In this document: positions 385 to 63,949 of the stretch, piece by piece
Layout of the letters: every line of letters begins with the position of its first letter
How positions within the stretch are numbered: the first letter of the stretch is position 1
Virus record (IMG/VR): IMGVR_UViG_3300037141_000279
Coordinates: 1-64,000 of that record
DNA length: 64,000 bases
Origin: a virus
Strand: one strand, 5' to 3'
Position numbers and translations under genes: made by a program
The notes under the pieces: model-generated
The model's database searches: none
What the model saw: the letters and a program-made list of their open reading frames with translations, nothing else
Told to the model about the DNA's origin: nothing

Positions 385-666
385 TTAATTGCTCTTTCTT
401 AGGTATAACTCAATCTGCCCTTCGGAGAGAAGGCGGAATTCAATGCCTTCAAACGCCACCGTCTTGCCTGCGTACGGACCATAGCAAATCACGTTCTCGA
501 CCTGAGTGCGCTTCGCATCGGGTCCGACGAATACCACCGTACCGAACACCATCTCTTGCTGGCGGACGTTGTCGGGTTGAATGATCCCGTCGATGATGGT
601 GTCGACGTGCGGGTTGTCCACGACAAGGATGTTGCTGCCTGCTGGTTCCAGAAAATTCTTAGACAT
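385..666 (-). CDS. groES: GroES-like co-chaperonin
   Basis: 93 residues, with the usual GroES order: an N-terminal strand (NILVVDNP), a mobile-loop segment (TIIDGIIQPDN), a G-x-V strand (FGTVVFVGPDA), a GKTVAFEG turn and a C-terminal E-x-x-L strand. Such heptameric lids close the GroEL cage. A longer frame runs to 717, but it would overlap the upstream gene and lacks a Shine-Dalgarno site; the ATG at 666 has GGAGG about 10 nt upstream. It lies two genes downstream of the phage GroEL and abuts the terminase gene, so it is probably co-expressed with morphogenesis genes. Confidence 0.85.
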   Translation of the reverse strand: MSKNFLEPAGSNILVVDNPHVDTIIDGIIQPDNVRQQEMVFGTVVFVGPDAKRTQVENVICYGPYAGKTVAFEGIEFRLLSEGQIELYLRKSN

Positions 667-865
667 TGGCGTCAAGCCTCCGTGGGTAAACTTGTGCTGC
701 CAGAATCTCGCGGGCATTGATATCGTCGATCACATCCGTCGGAATCGGACGCCGCGTGATGATTTGAAGTTCTTCGCCATTCGGCAGAGACAGGCTCCAA
801 AAATATACGGTGCCTCCCGCCTGTACACCTGCGATTGGGTTATTTACTGTTCCTAGTCTATCCAT
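659..865 (-). CDS. small protein between groEL and groES
   Basis: 68 residues, not recognised. The ATG overlaps the end of GroEL by 8 nt, and the stop overlaps the start of GroES, so the three genes are translationally coupled. The sequence is mixed alpha/beta (GGTVYFWSLSLPNGEEL, then TDVIDDINARE), with no signal peptide or cysteines. Position suggests a role tied to the chaperonin or its client, but nothing in the sequence shows this. Confidence 0.6.
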   Translation of the reverse strand: MDRLGTVNNPIAGVQAGGTVYFWSLSLPNGEELQIITRRPIPTDVIDDINAREILAAQVYPRRLDANV

Positions 866-2447
866 TGGTGTTTCTCTCCTGTGGGATTTCAGATACAGTC
901 GCGCCCATCGTGAGGATGCTGCAAGCGACCGCTGAAGCGTTTTTCAAAGCCTCAACAACAACCTTGACTGGATCGATGATGCCCGATGCAATCAGGTCTT
1001 CAAAATCTCCCGTCAGCGCGTTGTATCCGAGGTTCGGTGTCGCCATCAACTGAGTCACCAAATTATCGGCGTCAATCCCTGCGTTCTCTGCGATCTGACG
1101 TACGACCGCTTCGCACGCGGTGTGTACAACCATCATCCCATCAAATTCACCATGCAGCAGAGAGTGCTTCATCCCTGCGCGGGCATTAAATAGTGCGGTG
1201 CCGCCGCCCGCGACGATCCCTGATTCAACCGCAGCCTTTGCTGCCGACATCGCGTCGACCACGCGGTCTTTCTTCTCTTCCATCTCGGTGACAGTCACGC
1301 CGCCGACTTTGATGATGGTGACGCCGCCGAGCAGAGCCGCCAGCCGTTTCTGCAGAGGTGCACGCTCAGCGGGAGATACAGTCTCCATGCACTGTTTGAT
1401 ATGTTCAATCCGTCCGACCAGTTCAGCCTGATTGCCTTTGCCTTCGAGGATTTGGGTCTTGGCCATATTCGTGATGACCTTGCGGGCGCGTCCGAGATCG
1501 GTCAGTTTCACGTTCTCAATTTTCATGCCCAAATCTTCCGTGTACGCTTTGCCGCCAGTCAATGCCGCGATGTCCCGCATCACTTCTTTCTTGCGCTCGC
1601 CGTACGCTTCCATGCGCACCGCAATCAGCGGCAGCTTGAGGCTCATTTTGTTTTTGATGATGCAGGATAAGGCTTCAGCTTCGTACCCTCCCGCGATGAT
1701 AATCAGCGGAGTGCCTGTCTCATTCACTTGCTTCAACAACGGGACGACGGACTTTGCCGTGGCGATCACACCCTCCCACAACAGAATGCTGCAATCAAGC
1801 AATTCTGCCCGCATATCTTCAGGGTGTGTGATGAACGCTGGTGAGATCAAATTCGATTTGTCCAGTTCGAGCCCTGGAACAGAATGGACGTATGTATCTG
1901 CGGTCACCGACGGCTCGGCAGTTACGACACCTTCCTTGCCTGCCTTCTTGATTGCATCAGCGACGAGGCGACCAATTTCAATGTCACCATGTGCTGAGAC
2001 GGTTGCGACTTGGAAAATCTTCTCTTCGGTGACTTCTACCGCCATGGCCTGCAAACGCGTGATGATGGCTTCGGTGGCTTTGTGGATGCCGCGTTCCATC
2101 GCCATCGGGTTCGCACCCCTCTTGATCCTGGCAAACCCCTCGTGGATCATTTTGCGGGCAAGAACAGCAGTGCAGGTCGTGCCGTCGCCAACGCTGTTGT
2201 CGGTTTTCTGACATGCCTCGCGAATCAGATCGGCTCCGAGTTGTTCGGTGGTGTCGGACGGATTGACATAATTCGCCACAGTTACGCCGTCCCTGGTTAC
2301 TTTTGGCGTCTGCCCCATAGCACGCTGCCCCAGAATCACATTGCGTCCTCGGGGACCCTCAGTTAATGCGACGGCGTCGACTAGGAAGTCAATGCCGCGC
2401 AGAAGGGCTTCACGCGCTTCGTTTCCATACTGGGTTCGTTTGCTCAT
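858..2447 (-). CDS. groEL: GroEL-like chaperonin
   Basis: 529 residues, close to the 540-550 of bacterial GroEL. ATP-site landmarks are present: TEGPRGRNV near residue 29, DGVTVANYV near 53 and GDGTTCTAVLA with Asp88 (equivalent to GroEL Asp87). Further on come the apical segment (AGGYEAEALS), the KDRVVDAMSAAKAAVESGIVAGG region with the second catalytic Asp, and an equatorial C-terminus. The GGM-rich tail of bacterial GroEL is missing, as in other phage chaperonins. It presumably folds phage proteins such as capsid subunits. The start ATG overlaps the upstream stop (ATGA). Confidence 0.95.
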   Translation of the reverse strand: MSKRTQYGNEAREALLRGIDFLVDAVALTEGPRGRNVILGQRAMGQTPKVTRDGVTVANYVNPSDTTEQLGADLIREACQKTDNSVGDGTTCTAVLARKMIHEGFARIKRGANPMAMERGIHKATEAIITRLQAMAVEVTEEKIFQVATVSAHGDIEIGRLVADAIKKAGKEGVVTAEPSVTADTYVHSVPGLELDKSNLISPAFITHPEDMRAELLDCSILLWEGVIATAKSVVPLLKQVNETGTPLIIIAGGYEAEALSCIIKNKMSLKLPLIAVRMEAYGERKKEVMRDIAALTGGKAYTEDLGMKIENVKLTDLGRARKVITNMAKTQILEGKGNQAELVGRIEHIKQCMETVSPAERAPLQKRLAALLGGVTIIKVGGVTVTEMEEKKDRVVDAMSAAKAAVESGIVAGGGTALFNARAGMKHSLLHGEFDGMMVVHTACEAVVRQIAENAGIDADNLVTQLMATPNLGYNALTGDFEDLIASGIIDPVKVVVEALKNASAVACSILTMGATVSEIPQERNTNG

Positions 2448-3330: not shown

Positions 3331-4128
3331 TTAAATCGGGTCCTCGTCGTCGTCCTGGGGGCGTTGCGCTTTTGGGATTTCAGGGTGTTCAATCAGCTTG
3401 CCAAAATCCGCGCCCTTCAAATCCTTCTCGACGGTAGAGATGGGTTCAACCCACGCTGGCAGTATAACACCTTCGTTCCCTGCAATCAAGAGCCCAACAA
3501 TCTTTTTTGTCTTCAAGTCTACAACGCTGGAGCCTGATGCACCATGGGTTGCAAACTCTTGGACTCCGAAGAATCCAAGCATGTCTCCTGTCACCACGAC
3601 CGTAGTATTGACAATTCCTGGGCTGACGTACTTGGCTTGCCCTTCGGAGAAGTTGACATTCAGTGTCTTGCTGCCAATCTTCAAACTACCTTCGTCGCCG
3701 AGCGAGATCGTCGGGATGGGTTCTGTGGTCTTCAAATAGAAGACAGCGTAGTCAAGCAGCTGCAAATGCTTTTTGGCGTTCTCTTCTATGAAGATATCCA
3801 CGAAGCCGACCTTGATCAGTTCGATGGGGCGCGGCCCGTAGTCGATGTCGGACGCAATGAAAAACTTTAGGTCGTCAGGAAGCTGGGGATTCGCAGTCGT
3901 GCAGTGTCCTGCGCCGAGGAACAAATACCCTTCCTGAAACTTCTGGAACGCCGTAACCGTACACAAAAATTTGGGTGTGGGTCTCTCCCGATGCTCGCTT
4001 GTAGCATAGAGCGCATACGTCGCGGAGTAGACCTTTTTTTCAAATCCCTTGGGCGTGCGGATTGAGCCCGCCAGAGCGGGAAAAACAAACAGCAAACAGA
4101 GTAGAGCAGCGGTCAGCAGACGTTTCAT
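3331..4128 (-). CDS. exported trypsin-like serine protease
   Basis: 265 residues. Residues 1-20 form a signal peptide (KR, a hydrophobic run LLTAALLCLLFVFPALA, cleavage after ALA). The chymotrypsin-fold catalytic triad is readable: His75 in LGAGHCTT, Asp126 in LLDYAVF and Ser198 in HGASGSSVVD. The protein is therefore likely to act in the periplasm or outside the cell. It overlaps the holin-like gene upstream as ATGA. Phage prohead proteases are not exported, so a lysis, host-surface or exclusion role is more likely. Family clear, role inferred. Confidence 0.8.
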   Translation of the reverse strand: MKRLLTAALLCLLFVFPALAGSIRTPKGFEKKVYSATYALYATSEHRERPTPKFLCTVTAFQKFQEGYLFLGAGHCTTANPQLPDDLKFFIASDIDYGPRPIELIKVGFVDIFIEENAKKHLQLLDYAVFYLKTTEPIPTISLGDEGSLKIGSKTLNVNFSEGQAKYVSPGIVNTTVVVTGDMLGFFGVQEFATHGASGSSVVDLKTKKIVGLLIAGNEGVILPAWVEPISTVEKDLKGADFGKLIEHPEIPKAQRPQDDDEDPI

Positions 4129-9435: not shown

Positions 9436-9939
9436 CTAACGCTGCCCCGCCTCTGCGCGGTAACGAAGCAACGGACGGTCAGCCATGTATACTCGCTCTG
9501 CGTCGGTCTGTCGGTCAGGGTATAATTCAAGGAAGCGCACCACAACGTGATTGCATGTCTGACAGACCAAACCTCGCACACATTCAGCACAGCCGCCCAT
9601 CAATCCAGTCTGCTTATGGTTATGTGAATTTGAGCATCTGTGACTGTGCTCAATCACAGGCGACTCTTTAAGGTTGGACGCGCGACTTTGAAATGGTGCA
9701 TGACAGAGTTTGCAGCACTCCACCTGCTCTTGCAGCATGCGGTTGTACTCTGCGGGCTCTACTCCATATTGCCACCGCCGTCTACTCTCTGCCCTGTAGA
9801 CGAGCAGCTTCGGTTTAGTTGAATCCGCAACCCTGCGATGATACCAATTGCGATGATATGCACGTAGCTCTTCTGGCGTATACGCCGCAATGTTTTGACT
9901 GTACGTACCGTTCGGTTTGCGTGGATGCAAAACACTCAT
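9436..9939 (-). CDS. endonuclease VII-type HNH nuclease
   Basis: 167 residues. Long basic N-terminus (RNWYHRRVADSTKPK), then CKLCHAPF, the catalytic IEHSHRC segment with an unusual His/Asn-rich insertion, RGLVCQTCNHVV as second zinc pair. It starts about 20 nt after a compact bipartite promoter motif. Likely a homing endonuclease. Confidence 0.75.
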   Translation of the reverse strand: MSVLHPRKPNGTYSQNIAAYTPEELRAYHRNWYHRRVADSTKPKLLVYRAESRRRWQYGVEPAEYNRMLQEQVECCKLCHAPFQSRASNLKESPVIEHSHRCSNSHNHKQTGLMGGCAECVRGLVCQTCNHVVVRFLELYPDRQTDAERVYMADRPLLRYRAEAGQR

Positions 9940-11576: not shown

Positions 11577-11605
11577 ATGATAGCACCAGTGGTACTGGAT
11601 GTCAA
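11577..11605 (-). promoter_or_regulatory. sigma70-type promoter with degenerate operator
   Basis: Minus strand TTGACA, 17-bp spacer, TATCAT. The spacer contains AGTACCACTGGTGCT, a degraded version of the GTAC-N4-GTAC palindrome found at other promoters. Drives the leftward small-gene run from 11556. Confidence 0.65.
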
Positions 11606-12030
11606 GCATAAAATCGTTTCAACCATGTGATAAACTGTCCGTATGGTGTCGTTCCTTTTGCGTGGTTGCAGAGAAAACAACACGGCACCACGTTTGCCAA
11701 CGTGTACCCCAGATTAGTGTTCTTGCGATCAATCCCATTGTACACGAATCGTCCGCTCTTAAACTCGCTAATCGTTTGAGGCTGAACTCGGCAATAATGA
11801 CAAGGCGACGCTGTGATGAAATCGAATTGCTCTTCCGTCAGTTCCCACACCAGTCCCCGTGCTTTGGCGTTTATATGATATCGTCGCCACACAGCATTTC
11901 TCGCTGCGCGCCCGCGTGGATATTTTAACGGGCCTCTCCCATATGGGTTGCACTCTGTGCATCGCCCTGATTGAATAATCTGCCCGATGTGACAGTGACT
12001 GCAAATCTTGATATCTCGTCTGTACGCCAT
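11602..12030 (-). CDS. HNH endonuclease (IDR-x-N type)
   Basis: 142 residues. An N-terminal zinc ribbon (CSHCHIGQ...CTEC), a basic helix, CHYCRVQP, then the block FVYNGIDRKNTNLGYT, NVVPCCFLCNHAKG and a terminal F-x-x-W-L. The same block occurs in the nucleases at 16633-17274 and 28582-29130, so the three are paralogues. Probably a homing endonuclease. Confidence 0.75.
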   Translation of the reverse strand: MAYRRDIKICSHCHIGQIIQSGRCTECNPYGRGPLKYPRGRAARNAVWRRYHINAKARGLVWELTEEQFDFITASPCHYCRVQPQTISEFKSGRFVYNGIDRKNTNLGYTLANVVPCCFLCNHAKGTTPYGQFITWLKRFYA

Positions 12031-13814: not shown

Positions 13815-14507
13815 CTAGAACTGGTCATTCTCCGATGCGCGCCTGCGGGGGAACTCCAGCATCACACCCACAACGAACCCGCCACCGATGCGCCTGTCCC
13901 GATTGCCGCACGTTTGCGGGCCGATACTGCCGTCGCAGTAGGGATTACCCTGAGCCCACACCTGCCCGAAGTAATTATCCTCGGACAAGCGAACACAAAA
14001 GGGTCCTGTGCACGCGATGCGTACCGTGAACGCGATGTCTCCGCCCTGCATATGGCTCGACTCCAGGCCGCTCGGCGTCACGCCGTTATTGAACTGCCTC
14101 AAATAGTCGAACGACAGTCGCGCAGGACTACCTGCAAGCACGCCACGATAGGTGAGCCCGCCGAAGGCGTAGTCCGCGTCCTTGGTCACCTTGGTGACGT
14201 TGTACGCCGAATCCTCAACGCGCCCGTTCAAGCCCCAGTGATTGGTGAGCCAGATATGCCCGCCGACAGACGCCAGATTCGCGCGACCGCCACCGAGGGC
14301 GACGTGTGATTCGACGGGCGAGAATGTGTCTTGCAAATCCAATTCGTAGTGCTTGAGAAATGGAATTTCGACGCGAGCCGTCACGCCCACACTGGAGTTA
14401 TCAAACGCGATCCCTCCCGAGGTGCCGAACAAGAACCGAGTCTGCGCATTTGCGCGCGTCGCGAACAGCGACACCAACAGTAAAGCGAATACGATGATAC
14501 GTTTCAT
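13815..14507 (-). CDS. exported beta-barrel-like outer-membrane protein
   Basis: 230 residues. Signal peptide 1-21 (KRIIVFALLLVSLFATRANA). The rest alternates polar and hydrophobic residues in strand-length runs (VGVTARVEIPFLKHYELDLQ, FGGLTYRGVLAG, RIGGGFVVGVMLEF), as in small outer-membrane barrels. One disulfide-like pair region (ACTGPFCV, NPYCDGS...TCG). A phage gene of this type may alter the host surface, for example block other phages. It implies a diderm host. About 100 bp downstream of the stop is empty apart from promoter motif c. Confidence 0.6.
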   Translation of the reverse strand: MKRIIVFALLLVSLFATRANAQTRFLFGTSGGIAFDNSSVGVTARVEIPFLKHYELDLQDTFSPVESHVALGGGRANLASVGGHIWLTNHWGLNGRVEDSAYNVTKVTKDADYAFGGLTYRGVLAGSPARLSFDYLRQFNNGVTPSGLESSHMQGGDIAFTVRIACTGPFCVRLSEDNYFGQVWAQGNPYCDGSIGPQTCGNRDRRIGGGFVVGVMLEFPRRRASENDQF

Positions 14508-15208: not shown

Positions 15209-15252
15209 AGTACCAAAGTACCATTGCGCTGCCGAAGCTGATTTGGTATTCT
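15209..15252 (+). promoter_or_regulatory. GTAC-N4-GTAC operator with promoter (copy 3)
   Basis: AGTACCAAAGTACC at 15209-15222, -35 TTGCGC (15224-15229), 17-bp spacer, -10 TATTCT (15247-15252). Confidence 0.7.
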
Positions 15253-15278: not shown

Positions 15279-15431
15279 ATGAGTCACGATCACAAGATGA
15301 CGCGCATGGAGCGGCTATACTTCGGATTCACTTGTTCCGCGCAACCAAAAATGGAATTTCTATCGGGCGGGGACCTGAAGCGGTGCCCCATCTGCCGAGA
15401 GCCTAACCCCATGAAACAGGAGCCCAAGTAA
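15279..15431 (+). CDS. small zinc-ribbon protein
   Basis: 50 residues from the ATG at 15279 (GAGGAGG upstream). FTCSAQPKMEF...RCPICREPNP forms a C-x(n)-CPIC half-ribbon. Heads the operon that contains the exported JAMM-like and transglycosylase proteins. Confidence 0.55.
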   Translation: MSHDHKMTRMERLYFGFTCSAQPKMEFLSGGDLKRCPICREPNPMKQEPK

Positions 15432-15619
15432 TGACGCCCATCATCCGACGACACATGCGGCCAGCAAAAGAGCAGGAGATAGATATATTCGCTCGGTGGT
15501 TTGGCGTGATTCTCCGCGACCTGCGAGACAACCACGACCTGCGTCTGAAGCAGCATTCTCACAAACGCAAAGCGTACGCGCACGAATCCCAAATCACCCA
15601 TGTGACGCACATCCGATGA
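15431..15619 (+). CDS. small basic protein, unknown
   Basis: 62 residues; ATG coupled to the preceding stop (TAATG) with AGGAG upstream. Charged and helical (EIDIFARWFGVILRDLRDNH), basic C-terminus rich in His. Function unknown. Confidence 0.5.
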   Translation: MTPIIRRHMRPAKEQEIDIFARWFGVILRDLRDNHDLRLKQHSHKRKAYAHESQITHVTHIR

Positions 15620-16014
15620 ACTACATACTCAAACTCGGCGTGATGTTCGCCCTGGCGGCATCCGTATACGCTGCATCCGCAGACACCATTCTGGATAGAC
15701 CCGATGTGGTCAAGTCCATTGCGCAGGCTCGACATGATAGCTTCGGACCGCCGCACATCGAATACGCTCTTCTTGTCCGCAAGGATAGCGTTGACTTTGT
15801 GGCGGGCTCGGGCGACAATGTGCAATTCACATGGGACCCCACAATCATTACAGTCATCCACACCCACCCCGATGCGGGATTTGAACAGCCATCTCCGCAA
15901 GACCTGCAGATGGCGATCAAATTTCAACAACCGATGTACGTGGTTTCGCGCACAGAAATTTGGGTTGCACTTCCGACAGGAATAGTGTACTGTGCTTCCT
16001 GCCGACAGAAGTAG
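15616..16014 (+). CDS. exported JAB/MPN (JAMM)-like metalloprotease
   Basis: 132 residues. Signal peptide 1-20 (MNYILKLGVMFALAASVYAA). The core reads HTHPDAGFEQPSPQD, the H-x-H-P...S-x-x-D zinc-binding signature of JAMM isopeptidase-like domains; a glutamate in IEYALLVRK may be the general base. Domains of this type usually sit in tail proteins or ubiquitin-like systems in the cytoplasm; an exported stand-alone one, next to an exported transglycosylase, suggests action on the cell wall or periplasm. ATG overlaps the stop of the previous gene. Confidence 0.6.
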   Translation: MNYILKLGVMFALAASVYAASADTILDRPDVVKSIAQARHDSFGPPHIEYALLVRKDSVDFVAGSGDNVQFTWDPTIITVIHTHPDAGFEQPSPQDLQMAIKFQQPMYVVSRTEIWVALPTGIVYCASCRQK

Positions 16015-16045
16015 TTCAGATTCAAAATCGCTTTTAGGAGGCTGT

Positions 16046-16636
16046 ATGAAAACGATTATTAAACTTGAAGTGGTCATCGGCTTGATTTTATTGCTGGCGT
16101 TTGCAGTTCCATCGTTTGGCGGACTGTACGCAAACATGGACGCCACCGAGCAGTTCCTGTTCGCCCGCCAGATGCCACATGCACCCGCGATGGCGTTCAC
16201 CTATTCAATCTTCCGCACCGCACCTCTGGAAGTCGCCAAGGTGTTCGGTCGCACACCAGGATGCGCTGACGCTGATGCGGACATGATTGAAGCCACCGCC
16301 CGCGCCGCCATTAAAGCTGGTCTTGACCCAGCCATCGCTGCCGCGACTGTAGGCGTGGAAAGTGGCTGTAACGCGTTCGCGGTATCCTCAAAAGGCGCAA
16401 TAGGATATTTTCAGGTGATGCCTCGCATTTGGAAAGATCGCTTCGACTTCGCAGGCACGGTGAACTTATTTAATCGGGATGATAATATGCGAACAGGCGC
16501 GAAAATTGAAGCGGACCTGATCGCACAGTATGGAATAGAAGGTGGTCTCAGGCACTATAACGGCATGGGCACAGGGTCCCCTGAATATGATGCTGGGTAC
16601 ACCAATAAAATCCTGGCGCTGGCAGGCAGAAAATGA
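16046..16636 (+). CDS. exported lytic transglycosylase (SLT family)
   Basis: 196 residues from the ATG at 16046 (AGGAGG upstream). N-terminal signal or anchor 1-25. The lysozyme-like domain shows the catalytic Glu105 in VGVESGCNA, then SSKGAIGYFQVMP and the late HYNGMGTGSPEY...YTNKIL motif, all SLT family 1. It cleaves peptidoglycan from the periplasm. Unlike virion transglycosylases it is small and exported, so it may serve as a SAR/export-dependent lysin or open the wall for another process. Confidence 0.8.
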   Translation: MKTIIKLEVVIGLILLLAFAVPSFGGLYANMDATEQFLFARQMPHAPAMAFTYSIFRTAPLEVAKVFGRTPGCADADADMIEATARAAIKAGLDPAIAAATVGVESGCNAFAVSSKGAIGYFQVMPRIWKDRFDFAGTVNLFNRDDNMRTGAKIEADLIAQYGIEGGLRHYNGMGTGSPEYDAGYTNKILALAGRK

Positions 16637-17274
16637 GCGAACGAGGGCGAGCGGCTGTCCAAGCGTATTGGGCAGCCACAGGCGTGGATGAGAAACGGCG
16701 TCGAATTGGGTTAATGAAGGCGGCCACTCGACGCAAGTATTGTCTCCCTGATGGTGCTCTTTTTGGTCGATGGACCATCAAAAACTACCACAGCGCGGCT
16801 GGATATACTTGCGTTTGCACGTGCGGCAATGAGGCAATCGTCCGTCGACGCCTTCTTGTCCTTGGTGAATCCCAAAGTTGCGGGTGCTTGGCTGCCGAAC
16901 AGCGACAATCTCGTGGTCGGGAGTCTGCATCAGAAGGAAATCTTCGAGCCTTATTTCGTTCTACCCAAATCAGAGCACGCCGTCAACACCATCCGTGGCG
17001 AATATCACTCAAGAAATTTCGGGCTTTAGTCTTTGAGCCCTGTCACTACTGCGGCGTCTTTGGAACAAATTATAAAAGGTCTGAACGCAAAGATAAGTTA
17101 GGGGCGTTTTATTACAACGGTTTGGACCGCGCAGACAGCACGCTAGGATATATTCCCACAAATGTGGTGCCTTGCTGCAAAGTATGCAACCGTGCCAAAT
17201 CTGATATGACGCGCAGCGATTTTCAGGCGTGGTTATCTCAATTAGTGGCGCACACAAATGGAGAAAAAGTCTAA
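16633..17274 (+). CDS. HNH endonuclease (IDR-x-N type)
   Basis: 213 residues. N-terminal region with FGRWTIKNYHSAAGYTCVC and CGCL (AP2/zinc-like DNA-binding part), basic linker, then CHYCGVFG, YYNGLDRADSTLGYI, NVVPCCKVCNRAKS and F-x-x-W-L. Paralogous to the nucleases at 11.6 and 28.6 kb. Overlaps the transglycosylase stop by ATGA. Confidence 0.75.
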   Translation: MSERGRAAVQAYWAATGVDEKRRRIGLMKAATRRKYCLPDGALFGRWTIKNYHSAAGYTCVCTCGNEAIVRRRLLVLGESQSCGCLAAEQRQSRGRESASEGNLRALFRSTQIRARRQHHPWRISLKKFRALVFEPCHYCGVFGTNYKRSERKDKLGAFYYNGLDRADSTLGYIPTNVVPCCKVCNRAKSDMTRSDFQAWLSQLVAHTNGEKV

Positions 17275-19323: not shown

Positions 19324-19546
19324 CCCGCTCAATGTGGAAATTGTCCTTGAGGAATTTGTGGTAGTGCTCTCCCTGGCTGGGCGCTGCCATAAATTCCTGG
19401 TAGTGCTCGGGCGAAACTCCGTGAACCGCATACTGATACCCATTCTGATACCGCACGGTCATCTTCCGCTCGTGTGAATCGTACTTCGCTCCGTCAATGT
19501 GACCACTGCTGATCGGCGTGAATCCATCAAATCTGTGTGCTGACAT
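19316..19546 (-). CDS. KTSC-domain protein
   Basis: 76 residues with the KTSC pattern: S-S-x-I near the start (ISSGHIDGAKYD), MTVRYQNGYQYAVHGV and a terminal HYHKFLKDNFHIERV. KTSC domains occur alone or fused to phage tail or lysyl-tRNA synthetase-like proteins; their activity is unknown. It lies just beyond the terminator of the non-coding unit at 19.6-20.2 kb. Confidence 0.65.
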   Translation of the reverse strand: MSAHRFDGFTPISSGHIDGAKYDSHERKMTVRYQNGYQYAVHGVSPEHYQEFMAAPSQGEHYHKFLKDNFHIERVK

Positions 19547-19561
19547 AAATCCTCCAGAAAG

Positions 19562-19590
19562 TAAAAGAGGGGAGCCTTTTGGGCTCCCCT
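19562..19590 (-). terminator. rho-independent terminator of the tmRNA unit
   Basis: Perfect 8-bp stem ggggagcc/ggctcccc around a 5-nt loop, followed on the minus strand by TCTTTTAC. It begins about 10 nt after the stop codon of the tag frame, so it ends the non-coding transcript. Confidence 0.8.
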
Positions 19591-19600
19591 CCTCGGCTGT

Positions 19601-19773
19601 TTAGGCCGCCATCGCATACTGCCGTGCAGGAACCACGACAGCGCGCTTGGCGAACATCACAACCTGTGCGAGTTTGTTTTTCGCATTTATGGTTTGATCT
19701 AGTTTTACGTCGTTGTCAGGACGGCACGAGCCCTCGGCCACTTGTCTCAAAGAGCGAAACCCAGTTCAGGCCC
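19601..19773 (-). ncRNA. ssrA: circularly permuted tmRNA, coding piece
   Basis: The minus strand from 19773 reads GGGCCTG (5' acceptor strand), AACTG, GGTTTCGC (D-loop region), then the P2 strand CTTTGAGA, a pseudoknot-like GC-rich stretch and an open tag frame ending YAMAA-stop at 19601. GGGCCTG pairs over 7 bp (one G-U) with CAGGTCC of the acceptor piece, which lies upstream, and P2 pairs with TCTCAGAG there. The likely resume codon is GCG at 19684-19682, preceded by ATAAAT (U and A at -5/-4 as in SsrA), giving a 27-residue tag starting AKNK and ending PARQYAMAA. Final -AMAA resembles the ALAA/AVAA degron. Confidence 0.75.
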
Positions 19774-19842
19774 ACCGTACCGCACACTTGTTAGATTCCT
19801 CAGACCTTTGGTCAGAGAAAACATCTTTGATGTGCGGCAGGG

Positions 19843-19890
19843 TGGACCTGGGCAGATTCGAACTGCCGTATCTCTGAGAAGCCACCGATT
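19843..19890 (-). ncRNA. ssrA: circularly permuted tmRNA, acceptor piece
   Basis: Minus strand, 5' to 3': P2 strand TCTCAGAG (19879-19872), T-stem GGCAG, T-loop TTCGAAT, T-stem CTGCC, then CAGGTCC and discriminator A. CC follows but no encoded CCA. No 5' partner for CAGGTCC exists upstream; the partner GGGCCTG starts 70 nt downstream, the order of permuted two-piece tmRNA genes in alphaproteobacteria and cyanobacteria. The segment between (19774-19842) would be excised. The 5' end of this piece is not fixed and may extend into the structured leader. Confidence 0.75.
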
Positions 19891-20201
19891 ATTGACGTGC
19901 GTAATTTAAGGTCGCCGTCCTATTCGCGTGTGACGCAGACATGTGTCCACAGTTATTGACGCGTGTTAACTGCACGACCAGCTTTCGGGGCGAAACGGCC
20001 CCAAGAAGGTTCCCGTTTGTCAAGTTATTACCCAACGTGCGGGGATGCTTGACGAGGTGACGGGACCCTTCTTGGAACCATTTCGACCTCCACCATTGAT
20101 TCATCAGTCTTAAACCTGATGTTAGAGGGTCGCTGAAGCCCGAAGTATATGGACAGAGAATGCGCGCTTATCTGTTTGCAACTTCGGGCTTAGTCGAACC
20201 C
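19891..20201 (-). ncRNA. highly structured RNA leader of the tmRNA unit
   Basis: No gene, but strong nested helices on the minus strand: an 11-bp perfect helix (20181-20191 with 20136-20146), a 15-bp helix with one mismatch (20061-20075 with 20001-20015), an inner 6-bp helix (20048-20053 with 20019-20024), and a GGGGC/GCCCC hairpin next to it. These could be the pseudoknot domain of the acceptor piece or a separate RNA made from the same promoter. Near its 5' end is GGGTTCGAC, as in tmRNA D-regions. Confidence 0.55.
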
Positions 20202-20975: not shown

Positions 20976-21323
20976 ATGAAAATCCTAGTCGTAGACGATA
21001 ACGTCGACATGGCAGAAGCCCTCGCCATGAATCTGGAGTACGCAGGACACACCGTCATCACCGCCCACGACGGCGCGGAGGGTCTCTTCAAATTTCGGGA
21101 GTCCCAATTCTCTAACACTCCGTTTGACGCCGTCGTATCCGATTGGCAGATGCCGAAGATGGACGGTATCGAGATGATTCAACAGATACGCAGAATGGCT
21201 CCACTCGTCAAAGTGGTGCTCGTGAGTGGAGGCGGTCCGCACGTCCCCGAAAGCATCCCGTTTCTCGCCAAGCCGTTCGGACGAGCGGAGTTGCTGGCTG
21301 CCTTGGGGGTTGAATCCAAATGA
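20976..21323 (+). CDS. stand-alone response-regulator receiver domain
   Basis: 115 residues, a complete CheY-like receiver and nothing else. Acidic pocket Asp7-Asp8 (ILVVDDN), phosphoacceptor Asp56 (VVSDWQMPKMDG), Ser84 (VLVSGGG) and Lys99 (LAKPFG) are all present, so it should be phosphorylatable. No kinase is encoded in the window, so it would tap a host histidine kinase, either as a decoy sink or to signal to a partner. Confidence 0.85.
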   Translation: MKILVVDDNVDMAEALAMNLEYAGHTVITAHDGAEGLFKFRESQFSNTPFDAVVSDWQMPKMDGIEMIQQIRRMAPLVKVVLVSGGGPHVPESIPFLAKPFGRAELLAALGVESK

Positions 21324-28581: not shown

Positions 28582-29130
28582 TTATTTCTCCAAATGATTC
28601 ACAATCTTTTTTGCGTGATCCTGAAACTCCGTGACGTTCATTGTTCGCTTCCACTCATTGCATCGTTGACAACATGGGACGCTGTTTTCAGGCGTATACC
28701 CTATCTGGTTGTCTTGACGATCAATACCCCCATAAATGAAGGGCTCTGCAAACCGACTTCTTGTTTTTTCTCTCCCAGCGCCGTTTCGTGGGGGTTGCCC
28801 ACAATAAAAACAATCTTGCTGCGTCAAAAGATCAAACTGTTCGTCCGACAGATGCCAATCATATCCCCGTTTTTGGGCTTTTTTCTTATACCGCGATAAA
28901 ATTTCATTCCTAACCGCTGTCGATCCTGGGAGCCGTCGCGTATGCCCGAGTTCTGTTCGGTTAGCGCAAACGCCACATTGCGTCAATCGATGAACATGAT
29001 ACGCAAGCACGAGGCGAATCAGGCCACAAGCACATTGACACCGCCAACTTGATCTTCCTGCAAGCGGCTTTACATACTCAAGAACAACCCAGCTTCCAAA
29101 TTTATCTCCAATTGCAATACGAGGTCTCAT
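28582..29130 (-). CDS. HNH endonuclease (IDR-x-N type)
   Basis: 182 residues from the ATG at 29130 (GGAGA upstream); in-frame ATGs at 29154/29151 lie right at the promoter. N-terminal module WVVLEYVKPLAGRSSWRCQC, CGLI, CGVC; then CFYCGQPP, FIYGGIDRQDNQIGYT, NSVPCCQRCNEWKR. Third paralogue of the 11.6 and 16.6 kb nucleases. It interrupts the virion operon and brings its own promoter. Confidence 0.75.
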   Translation of the reverse strand: MRPRIAIGDKFGSWVVLEYVKPLAGRSSWRCQCACGLIRLVLAYHVHRLTQCGVCANRTELGHTRRLPGSTAVRNEILSRYKKKAQKRGYDWHLSDEQFDLLTQQDCFYCGQPPRNGAGREKTRSRFAEPFIYGGIDRQDNQIGYTPENSVPCCQRCNEWKRTMNVTEFQDHAKKIVNHLEK

Positions 29131-29155
29131 ATGGCTATCTCCTAACCGCATCAAC

Positions 29156-40774: not shown

Positions 40775-40798
40775 CTATCTATGGAACCAAAAGTCTTA
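40775..40798 (-). promoter_or_regulatory. compact bipartite promoter-like motif (copy g)
   Basis: Minus strand ATAAGACTTTTGGTTCCATA followed by GATAG: GACTT, six bases, CCATA. It lies across the last codons of the GIY-YIG gene and 8 nt before the structural gene at 40767. Confidence 0.5.
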
Positions 40799-41489
40799 TC
40801 TTGGCTTGTCGTGCTTTTTGCGATGCCGACATTTTCGCTTTCGTTTCCTCAGATGCAGGCTTGCGATGAGCATCTGCATTCTTGCGTTTCGATTCTTCGG
40901 AGTGCTGTCGACCAAAAAAGGGATTAGCTTCGCCGACCATCGTGCCTTGGCGAATCTCACTCGCCCGCCTGCGCTGTTCTACAGATTTCTTTTTCCCCAA
41001 ATTCGCTTGCCGCAGTTTTTCAATATGGTCCGCCGATGGATGAAATTGCGGTCCCAATTCCTGACGCATCGCCAACCATTTCGCTGACTGTTTCTTTCCT
41101 TTCATCCCCGCTTGACCGCCCGCGTCATAATATGCTTGCAGGCTTTCACTTCGTTTGCGCCGAGTCTCCTCCGACTGCGGACCTGTGTTCCCTTCGCCGC
41201 CACGACAAATGTTGTATCCCACTTCTGGGTGCTGAGTATTCAACGCTTTAATCAGCCACCGCTCCCAATAGTCGCACTCTTCTCTCGTCTGCAAGTCCGA
41301 AATCAGAGGATGAATACTCCACGCTTCTTTCGAGTGCAGCCGCATGGATGCGAACAAATGCGAGTTACCACCTCGTCCTTGTTTTGCGTCAGATAGTTTC
41401 GTCTGCAAATATTTCTGCAGAGTCTGCCCCTTATGCTGCCCAATGTAAATCTTCAGTGTTTCCGAATTAACGATTGCGTAGATGAACAT
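40779..41489 (-). CDS. GIY-YIG homing endonuclease
   Basis: 236 residues from the ATG at 41489. FIYAIVNSETLKIYIGQHKG is the GIY-YIG core; Glu in CDYWERWLIKALNT is the metal ligand; GYNICRGGEGNTG ends the catalytic domain. The C-terminus is a string of NUMOD3 motifs (SEETRRKRSES, SVEQRRRASE, SEESKRKNADA, SEETKAKMSAS). Paralogue of the gene at 48.4-49.0 kb. Confidence 0.85.
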   Translation of the reverse strand: MFIYAIVNSETLKIYIGQHKGQTLQKYLQTKLSDAKQGRGGNSHLFASMRLHSKEAWSIHPLISDLQTREECDYWERWLIKALNTQHPEVGYNICRGGEGNTGPQSEETRRKRSESLQAYYDAGGQAGMKGKKQSAKWLAMRQELGPQFHPSADHIEKLRQANLGKKKSVEQRRRASEIRQGTMVGEANPFFGRQHSEESKRKNADAHRKPASEETKAKMSASQKARQAKIRLLVP

Positions 41490-41500
41490 GATACCCTCCA

Positions 41501-41524
41501 CACTTATGGTATCATAAGTCTACT
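41501..41524 (-). promoter_or_regulatory. compact bipartite promoter-like motif (copy h)
   Basis: Minus strand GTAGACTTATGATACCATAA followed by GTG: GACTT, six bases, CCATAAGTG. 12 nt before the GIY-YIG start at 41489. Confidence 0.6.
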
Positions 41525-48396: not shown

Positions 48397-49005
48397 TCAA
48401 TGTTGTTTCAAAAGTCTTATTCTAATTTTCTGTTTTGTCTTTTCAGACACAGCATGCCCCATCAAAGCGGCGCTGATTTTTCGTTTTGTCTCTTCCGAAC
48501 GCTTAGTGCCTGTCAGCCTAACCTTCATTCCCCATCTCGTCGCATCAGAGTGTTTTCGCCCCACGCCAGCCTTGCTAATTTTCTCTCTGGTTTCAGGAGA
48601 CGCTTTCTTTCCTTTTCGGTTATGATTACCTAAAGCGGAAATTCGCATTTTTTCTCGGGCGGCAAGAGTCATCTTTTTTCCTTTATTCCACGGGACGCCC
48701 GTATGCCCTTCGCCACCCCGACAAATGTTGTAACCAACTTCGGGATTCTGGGTATTCAACGATTTAATCAGCAATCGTTCCCAGTAGTCGCAGTCTTCTT
48801 TAGTCTGCAAGTCCGAAAACAGTGGATAAATACTCCACACACCGTGAGGATGAATTCTCATAGATGCGTAAAGATGCGACCGAGTTGAAATCCCTCTCTT
48901 CGCTTCGTACATCTTCTGCTGCAAGTACTGCCGCAGGTTGGTGCCTTTGTGCTGCCCAACATAAATCTTTAGAGTCTCGCTGTTGACAATCACATAGACG
49001 AACAT
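48397..49005 (-). CDS. GIY-YIG homing endonuclease
   Basis: 202 residues. FVYVIVNSETLKIYVGQHKG core, CDYWERLLIKSLNTQ with the metal-ligand Glu, GYNICRGGEGHTG, then NUMOD3 repeats (SPETREKISKAG, SEETKRKISAALMG, SEKTKQKIRIR). Highly similar to the gene at 40.8-41.5 kb. Starts 13 nt after compact motif l. Confidence 0.85.
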   Translation of the reverse strand: MFVYVIVNSETLKIYVGQHKGTNLRQYLQQKMYEAKRGISTRSHLYASMRIHPHGVWSIYPLFSDLQTKEDCDYWERLLIKSLNTQNPEVGYNICRGGEGHTGVPWNKGKKMTLAAREKMRISALGNHNRKGKKASPETREKISKAGVGRKHSDATRWGMKVRLTGTKRSEETKRKISAALMGHAVSEKTKQKIRIRLLKQH

Positions 49006-63218: not shown

Positions 63219-63881
63219 TCAAACCGATGCAGGGATGTCAACTGAAATCGACATCCCTTCCCGAAAATCTTCAACGAAGCGTTCGGGGACTCGGGCAAAA
63301 ATGGAATCAAGGTCCTGAACCTTCCCGAGTTTGAATTTTAACTCGTCGAGCAAGAAATCCAGAACGAATTCCCGAGCCTGCATGCTGACTTTGTCAGAAT
63401 TATCATGGTAAACCGTGCTTACCACCTGGGTTGCGTCGAGGAGTTGGTTCCCCATCCCGTGGTTATCCGCTACGACGGAGAAGGATCGTCCTTGGGTGGC
63501 GTCGGTGCTCACGGTCAAGGTCTCGCCGACCTCATAGTCCACGTGGTGTGCGTCGAGCAGGTTTTTGGTATCATCGAATGATTTGGGTGGGGTGGAGACA
63601 TGGAACTTTGCTTCATGTGACGCCAGCCATCCCGCGATGCGGTATGCGATAGGGCTTTGGCGAATCACATTAACGCTGGATTGATACTTCTCTTCTCGGG
63701 TGAGTTTCGGGGCGGGAGCAGGGGATAGCGCCAGTAGGTTCCACGCACCCTCAAAGCCGTCTTTGAGTAAGCGTAATCGAACCCAAAAAGGTTCCGCAGG
63801 AAGGGTGTCTATAACTTGAGCCTTGCCTTCTCCTCTTACTTTAACCCAGGCTCCAACTTTCAAATCATCTTTGCTCATCAT
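63219..63881 (-). CDS. protein with N-terminal KOW/SH3-like segment
   Basis: 220 residues, two ATGs at the start (63881), GGAG upstream. LKVGAWVKVRGEGKAQVIDT is like a small SH3/KOW barrel. A Thr-rich middle and an acidic helical C-terminus (DNSDKVSMQAREFVLDFLLD) follow. Promoter with operator just upstream. Unknown function. Confidence 0.5.
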   Translation of the reverse strand: MMSKDDLKVGAWVKVRGEGKAQVIDTLPAEPFWVRLRLLKDGFEGAWNLLALSPAPAPKLTREEKYQSSVNVIRQSPIAYRIAGWLASHEAKFHVSTPPKSFDDTKNLLDAHHVDYEVGETLTVSTDATQGRSFSVVADNHGMGNQLLDATQVVSTVYHDNSDKVSMQAREFVLDFLLDELKFKLGKVQDLDSIFARVPERFVEDFREGMSISVDIPASV

Positions 63882-63905: not shown

Positions 63906-63949
63906 ATGCTACCAGATAGGCTTCGGACCGTCAATAGTACTTTCGTACT
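63906..63949 (-). promoter_or_regulatory. GTAC-N4-GTAC operator with promoter (copy 9)
   Basis: Minus strand: palindrome AGTACGAAAGTACT (63949-63936), -35 TTGACG (63934-63929), 17-bp spacer, -10 TAGCAT (63911-63906). Same layout as copies 1-5, 7 and 8, on the other strand. Confidence 0.75.

Follow-up and report, generated by a model that had tools for sequence, protein, structure and literature searches.

A putatively exported JAMM protein encoded beside an SLT lytic transglycosylase in a metagenomic phage

Results

Gene arrangement of the locus

The window analysed here, a stretch of 64,000 nucleotides from a soil phage, is included in a 96,295-bp IMG/VR virus record (IMGVR_UViG_3300037141_000279). 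An operator and promoter are followed on its plus strand by two small ORFs, the JAMM gene, the SLT gene and an endonuclease VII-like gene without any Pfam match at E ≤ 1 (Table 1). These ORFs are presumably read as one transcript. The boundaries originally given for the JAMM and SLT genes were exact.

Table 1. Features of the operon and of the control elements, in window coordinates unless a locus is named
Feature	Position	Strand	Basis
Palindromic operator AGTACCAAAGTACC	15209..15222	+	one of 10 GTACnnnnGTAC sites in the record
Sigma-70-like promoter TTGCGC-17 bp-TATTCT, abutting the operator	15224..15252	+	sequence
50-aa ORF, first gene of the operon	15279..15431	+	ORF; 40% over 45 aa to an L049 ORF
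62-aa ORF, ATGA overlap with the JAMM start	15431..15619	+	L063 homologue directly upstream of SLT, 40% over 52 aa
Predicted JAMM-fold protein, apparent signal peptide, 132 aa	15616..16014	+	E49, H82, H84, S93, D96
AGGAGG ribosome-binding site of SLT	16036..16041	+	sequence
SLT lytic transglycosylase, export signal, 196 aa	16046..16636	+	PF01464, E = 9.8e-8
HNH/endonuclease VII-like gene, overlapping the SLT stop	16633..17274	+	phrog_1035, E = 2.9e-13
GTACnnnnGTAC sites	12079, 12583, 15210, 17594, 20351, 21526, 24683, 49555, 63937, L002 4172

Sequence evidence for the JAMM protein

The JAMM signature HTHPDAGFEQPSPQD was present as predicted, with a core of E49, H82-T-H84, S93 and D96. Of the 777 stop-to-stop frames in the record with 60 codons or more, 2 matched a JAMM-like regular expression, and HxHP was found in the window JAMM only. 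The Prok-JAB HMM gave E = 2.7e-4 and 21.2 bits for the window protein, against a cut-off of 25, the match covering residues 76-113 and therewith the zinc-motif half. A single homologue was found, in record 3300018026_000007 (G003), with 46% identity over the alignment; with 25.8 bits it lay over the 25-bit Prok-JAB cut-off. All five residues E49, H82, H84, S93 and D96 were identical in the two proteins, and both had the spacing H-x-H-x8-S-x2-D, where the usual JAMM gap from HxH to S is x7. Identity at codon positions 1, 2 and 3 over 127 aligned codons was 0.58, 0.62 and 0.31, a pattern as expected for a protein under selection. The start codon was supported by its upstream context in both phages: the preceding ORF overlaps the ATG in the window, and in G003 the ATG (L051 6001) comes just after the end of the preceding ORF (5996).

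In viral contigs, the protein query returned two stretches, neither of them confirmed as a JAMM homologue; a two-row alignment query returned 40, of which one was confirmed and was G003 itself. A DNA pattern gave three, one in the G003 record and two without a JAMM motif in the ORFs listed. No JAMM homologue was confirmed among the 63 and 135 stretches obtained from genome contigs. The protein and alignment scans of viral and genome contigs relied on short peptide patterns, which distant relatives may escape. Among phages, the window protein matched Medea1 protein K only (E = 0.03, over the motif) and the G003 homologue matched nothing; the latter had no match among plasmids either. Searches of the PDB by sequence with the JAMM protein and of PADLOC were likewise negative.

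Predicted fold

AlphaFold (AF2) models, built from the two sequences only, had a pLDDT of 72.2 and a pTM of 0.64 for the window protein, and 69.7 and 0.66 for the G003 homologue. In these models a strand begins at or beside the glutamate, a later one ends with HxH, and SxxD opens a helix. Foldseek against the PDB returned nothing at E ≤ 0.001, the best match being the Brr2-Prp8 Jab1 complex at E = 0.15. VIA-align, a structural realignment of Foldseek's own candidates, gave best Z scores of 9.0 for the window model and 8.4 for the homologue model; P. furiosus JAMM1 (5ld9) aligned with Z = 8.5 and an rmsd of 2.9 over 101 positions. A Z of 7-8 would not decide the matter by itself, and it is the uniformity of the VIA-align list that makes the MPN/JAMM fold persuasive. 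The best 50 chains listed per model were all of MPN/JAMM type by title or by subunit identity. BRCC36, Rpn11, P. furiosus JAMM1, AMSH, Cap3 and RadC were recognised by title, and the EMC (EMC8/9), COP9 (CSN), eIF3 and proteasome-lid subunits are ones which we take to be MPN/JAMM-type. Among the viral models of BFVD there were eight matches at E ≤ 0.001, one of them named a deubiquitination hydrolase, with RadC-like JAB proteins lower. The models indicate that the window protein has an MPN/JAMM fold with the full E/HxH/S/D catalytic set.

Apparent export signals and the SLT enzyme

Signal peptides were judged from hydropathy and by eye. In keeping with the apparent signal peptide ascribed to the JAMM protein, both homologues have a hydrophobic N-terminal stretch, and the sequences of the two stretches differ. 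In the window protein the signal is moderate, the best ten-residue Kyte-Doolittle mean being 2.23, with one basic residue and a possible site between ASA and D; the stretch was stronger in the G003 homologue, with a mean of 2.95. An initial filter that required a basic residue before the hydrophobic stretch had missed the window protein, the n-region of which is weak. On the strength of these N-termini, the JAMM protein is likely exported.

The following gene encodes, as proposed, an SLT enzyme with an export signal: it matched PF01464 with 32 bits against a cut-off of 21.3 and has a hydrophobic N-terminus. Its E105, which by motif we take to be the catalytic glutamate, was invariant in five aligned phage proteins. 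The enzyme shares the SLT domain with ES, AVSS-GAIG and YNG motifs with known SLT lytic transglycosylases but differs in being a small, phage-encoded form with an export signal.

Operator sites

The operator-promoter predicted upstream of JAMM and SLT was confirmed and recurs in this phage. The 96.3-kb record contained 10 copies of GTACnnnnGTAC, whereas 50 first-order Markov simulations gave a mean of 0.36 and a maximum of 2. Seven of the ten sites abut the -35 box of a sigma-70-like promoter with a spacer of 17-18 bp, namely six plus-strand copies between 12 and 25 kb and one on the minus strand at 63948. The motif was absent from 24.7-49.5 kb and beyond 68.2 kb. Four related loci had 5, 5, 4 and 8 sites; by eye, this promoter layout was shared by many of them and lacking at the three sites of Tunturiibacter phage Tunturi_3. 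In G003, a site lies upstream of the ORF preceding JAMM (L047 9986, minus strand). The recurrent operator-promoter may stand for early expression, for repression in lysogeny or for activation; an early timing of JAMM and SLT would be deduced only from the positions of the sites.

The phage and its relatives

The portal protein (PF23899, SU10-type) showed 71-83% identity to the portals of 35 other metagenomic phage loci and was distantly related (23.6%) to that of Tunturi_3, a phage isolated on a host of the Acidobacteriota (PMC11924767). An acidobacterial host is a reasonable guess for the present phage as well. The identified head genes (portal, terminase, major head protein) are situated beyond 68.2 kb, far from JAMM and on the opposite strand. 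The block at 25-46 kb looks structural by eye; none of the nine proteins tested from it matched a tail family by HMM, and one of the nine matched any family at all, weakly, a head-decoration one (E = 0.0024).

The record holds further genes. A GroEL-like chaperonin (858-2447, minus strand; PF00118, E = 8.8e-54) lies near a GroES-like gene (385-666, minus strand; PF00166, 27.1 bits, over the cut-off), and a stand-alone CheY-like response regulator receiver (20976-21323, plus strand; PF00072, E = 1.5e-17) is found in the accessory region. Homing-type nuclease genes, of the endonuclease VII/HNH-like kind and of the GIY-YIG kind with NUMOD3 (NUMOD3 over its cut-off, GIY-YIG just under), are scattered amid the phage genes at 9436-9939, 11602-12030, 16633-17274, 40779-41501 and 48397-49005; the gene at 28582-29154 resembles them by eye and has no Pfam match. 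The phage also encodes a permuted tmRNA (19510-19932, minus strand), 1.3 kb from a tyrosine recombinase gene, with an Rfam RF04321 match of 63.4 bits (cut-off 47; 19601-19900). Its tag according to ARAGORN is AKNKLAQVVMFAKRAVVVPARQYAMAA, with 27 residues long next to usual tags. A tmRNA was also detected in the related phage loci L047, L048 and L049 at 70-77 bits, in L048 by Rfam only.

Distribution of JAMM and SLT

Both genes were looked for in 25 of the 35 portal-bearing records, leaving out ten short ones (less than 9 kb each). Most of the 25 are far shorter than the present record and probably fragments, so that absence from them is weak evidence. SLT was found in four of the 25 and, by alignment search, in three more records, which makes eight with this phage. 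JAMM was present in two of these eight, adjoining SLT in this phage, and was not found in the other six, three of which exceed 96 kb. In G003 the two genes share a strand, JAMM preceding SLT by 4.2 kb, and an IS605 OrfB/TnpB-type gene is found in the interval. The original prediction had taken JAMM and SLT as a set; a fixed pair was rejected on this synteny. A strict enzyme pair is unlikely too, given the six records without a detected JAMM and the distance between the genes in its other carrier.

A related record, G027 (L063), bears on the history of the operon. There, the homologue of the 62-aa ORF is joined to SLT directly, through an ATGA overlap with its start, whereas in the window this ORF overlaps JAMM instead. 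Since the ORF abuts SLT in G027, the ORF-SLT operon appears to be the older arrangement and JAMM an accessory cassette inserted into it, the alternative being loss of JAMM in G027. Judging from these gene orders and counts, SLT is more widely kept and JAMM is accessory. The phage protein encoded at 13815-14507 on the minus strand carries an export signal and weakly matches an outer-membrane-barrel family (PF13505, 13 bits, under the cut-off). In G012 and G006, a homologue of this gene precedes SLT and is read in the same direction, adjoining it in the former and separated from it by an HNH-like gene in the latter.

Discussion

The JAMM protein is most likely a periplasmic zinc (iso)peptidase that acts on the host envelope. 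We argue for an active periplasmic metalloenzyme because the full residue set is kept and the protein is apparently exported. Its export, zinc, activity, substrate and timing are what we infer. The JAMM cassette would have entered a regulated phage operon in which an exported SLT was already present; the signal peptide would direct the protein to the periplasm, for the hydrolysis of an amide bond by Glu49 and a zinc with His82, His84 and Asp96 as its ligands. Prok-JAB and archaeal JAMM1 proteins (PF14464; PDB 5ld9, 1oi0) share the single-domain JAMM fold and the E, HxH, S and D residues with the window protein. The latter differs from them, however, by its apparent signal peptide and its x8 spacing, and no ubiquitin-like partner was identified for it.

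As to the substrate, isopeptide bonds to side-chain amines are what JAMM enzymes cleave. In combination with a wall enzyme as neighbour, this makes a chemically reasonable target of the peptide cross-link in host peptidoglycan, where an amide is formed with the side-chain amine of mDAP. JAMM, cutting cross-links, would complement SLT, the cutter of glycan strands. Peptidoglycan cross-links are one plausible substrate, with an envelope protein nearly as likely. The argument is weakened by the loose linkage to SLT, and no wall enzyme is plainly missing from this phage since its record also encodes a GH108 endolysin-like protein. An exported zinc JAMM (iso)peptidase, carried as an accessory cassette and with the cross-link as its likeliest single substrate, is our tentative choice. 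The stronger version, in which a phage periplasmic JAMM would be a cross-link isopeptidase forming a new catalytic class of wall hydrolase, derived from the deubiquitinase superfamily, that works with a lytic transglycosylase under phage control, appears unlikely to us. Among the literature matches listed (titles and abstract starts), neither an exported JAMM of a phage nor a peptidoglycan hydrolase of the JAMM type was recognised.

A possibility to be held with comparable reserve is a protease of the periplasm by which an envelope protein is cut or released, for instance to prevent superinfection, with the proximity to SLT reflecting a common envelope-directed accessory set. Candidate targets would be a receptor of the host, one of its defence or stress-response proteins, or an envelope protein encoded by the phage itself. 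JAB enzymes are described in PMC1779556 and PMC3482391 as peptidases of ubiquitin-like proteins. The patchy occurrence of JAMM would suit such a role, as would the other export-signal proteins of the phage, such as those at 13815-14507 and 3331-4128 (no Pfam match). However, the one protein found to end in GG (last four residues, from rough gene calls) is not on the list of export-signal proteins.

Destruction of the incoming DNA of competing phages by a periplasmic JAMM nuclease is rather improbable. A nuclease function was predicted in PMC3482391 for divergent JABs without the ubiquitin-tail tunnel, and such a role is proposed for RadC and toxin JABs, but the nuclease activity of JABs is given in that paper as a prediction. 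The G003 homologue weakly matched DUF4329 (Tox-JAB-2; 13.8 bits) and RadC (11.7 bits), and the VIA list for the homologue model included the RadC structure 2qlc. These scores are far under the cut-offs, 28.6 bits in the case of DUF4329 (PF14220), and the window protein matched neither family. It has the residue set E, H[ST]H, S and D given for Tox-JAB-2 (PMC3482391), yet it is a stand-alone protein of 132 aa.

We consider it doubtful that the JAMM protein is an auxiliary lysis enzyme, made late and acting alongside SLT and the GH108 endolysin-like protein. An operator copy does lie 33 bp upstream of the GH108 start, and the SLT with its export signal might act without a holin. The promoter layout at this copy, however, points the other way, and the genes that elsewhere follow the operator-promoter layout are the tyrosine recombinase, small ORFs and the gene at 63219-63881.

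That the protein belongs to the virion or tail, like those of the lambda gpK type (JAB with NlpC/P60), is very improbable: the best PHROG matches were to tail families (phrog_2635, phrog_30), phage JAMM proteins with a similar HxH..S..D segment, and the argument from location is limited as tail genes were not found by HMM, but these matches span the zinc-motif region only, and the 132-aa window protein has an apparent signal peptide, has Prok-JAB as its sole Pfam match at E ≤ 1, without NlpC/P60, and is encoded away from the identified virion genes. Tunturi_3 gp141 (PP885686), annotated as a minor tail protein, is likewise a JAMM gene product, over the Prok-JAB cut-off, of a distantly related acidobacterial phage. 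Unlike the window protein it lacks a hydrophobic N-terminus (by eye), and a two-row profile built from the exported form missed it.

In conclusion, the preferred reading remains a periplasmic zinc (iso)peptidase directed at the host envelope, and the JAMM protein is small and easy to test. According to a 2012 paper (PMC3482391), the prokaryotic JAB domains identified earlier were all intracellular and toxin JABs were new there. An exported phage JAMM beside a wall enzyme would, if true, widen the range of the superfamily to include the periplasm and perhaps peptidoglycan.
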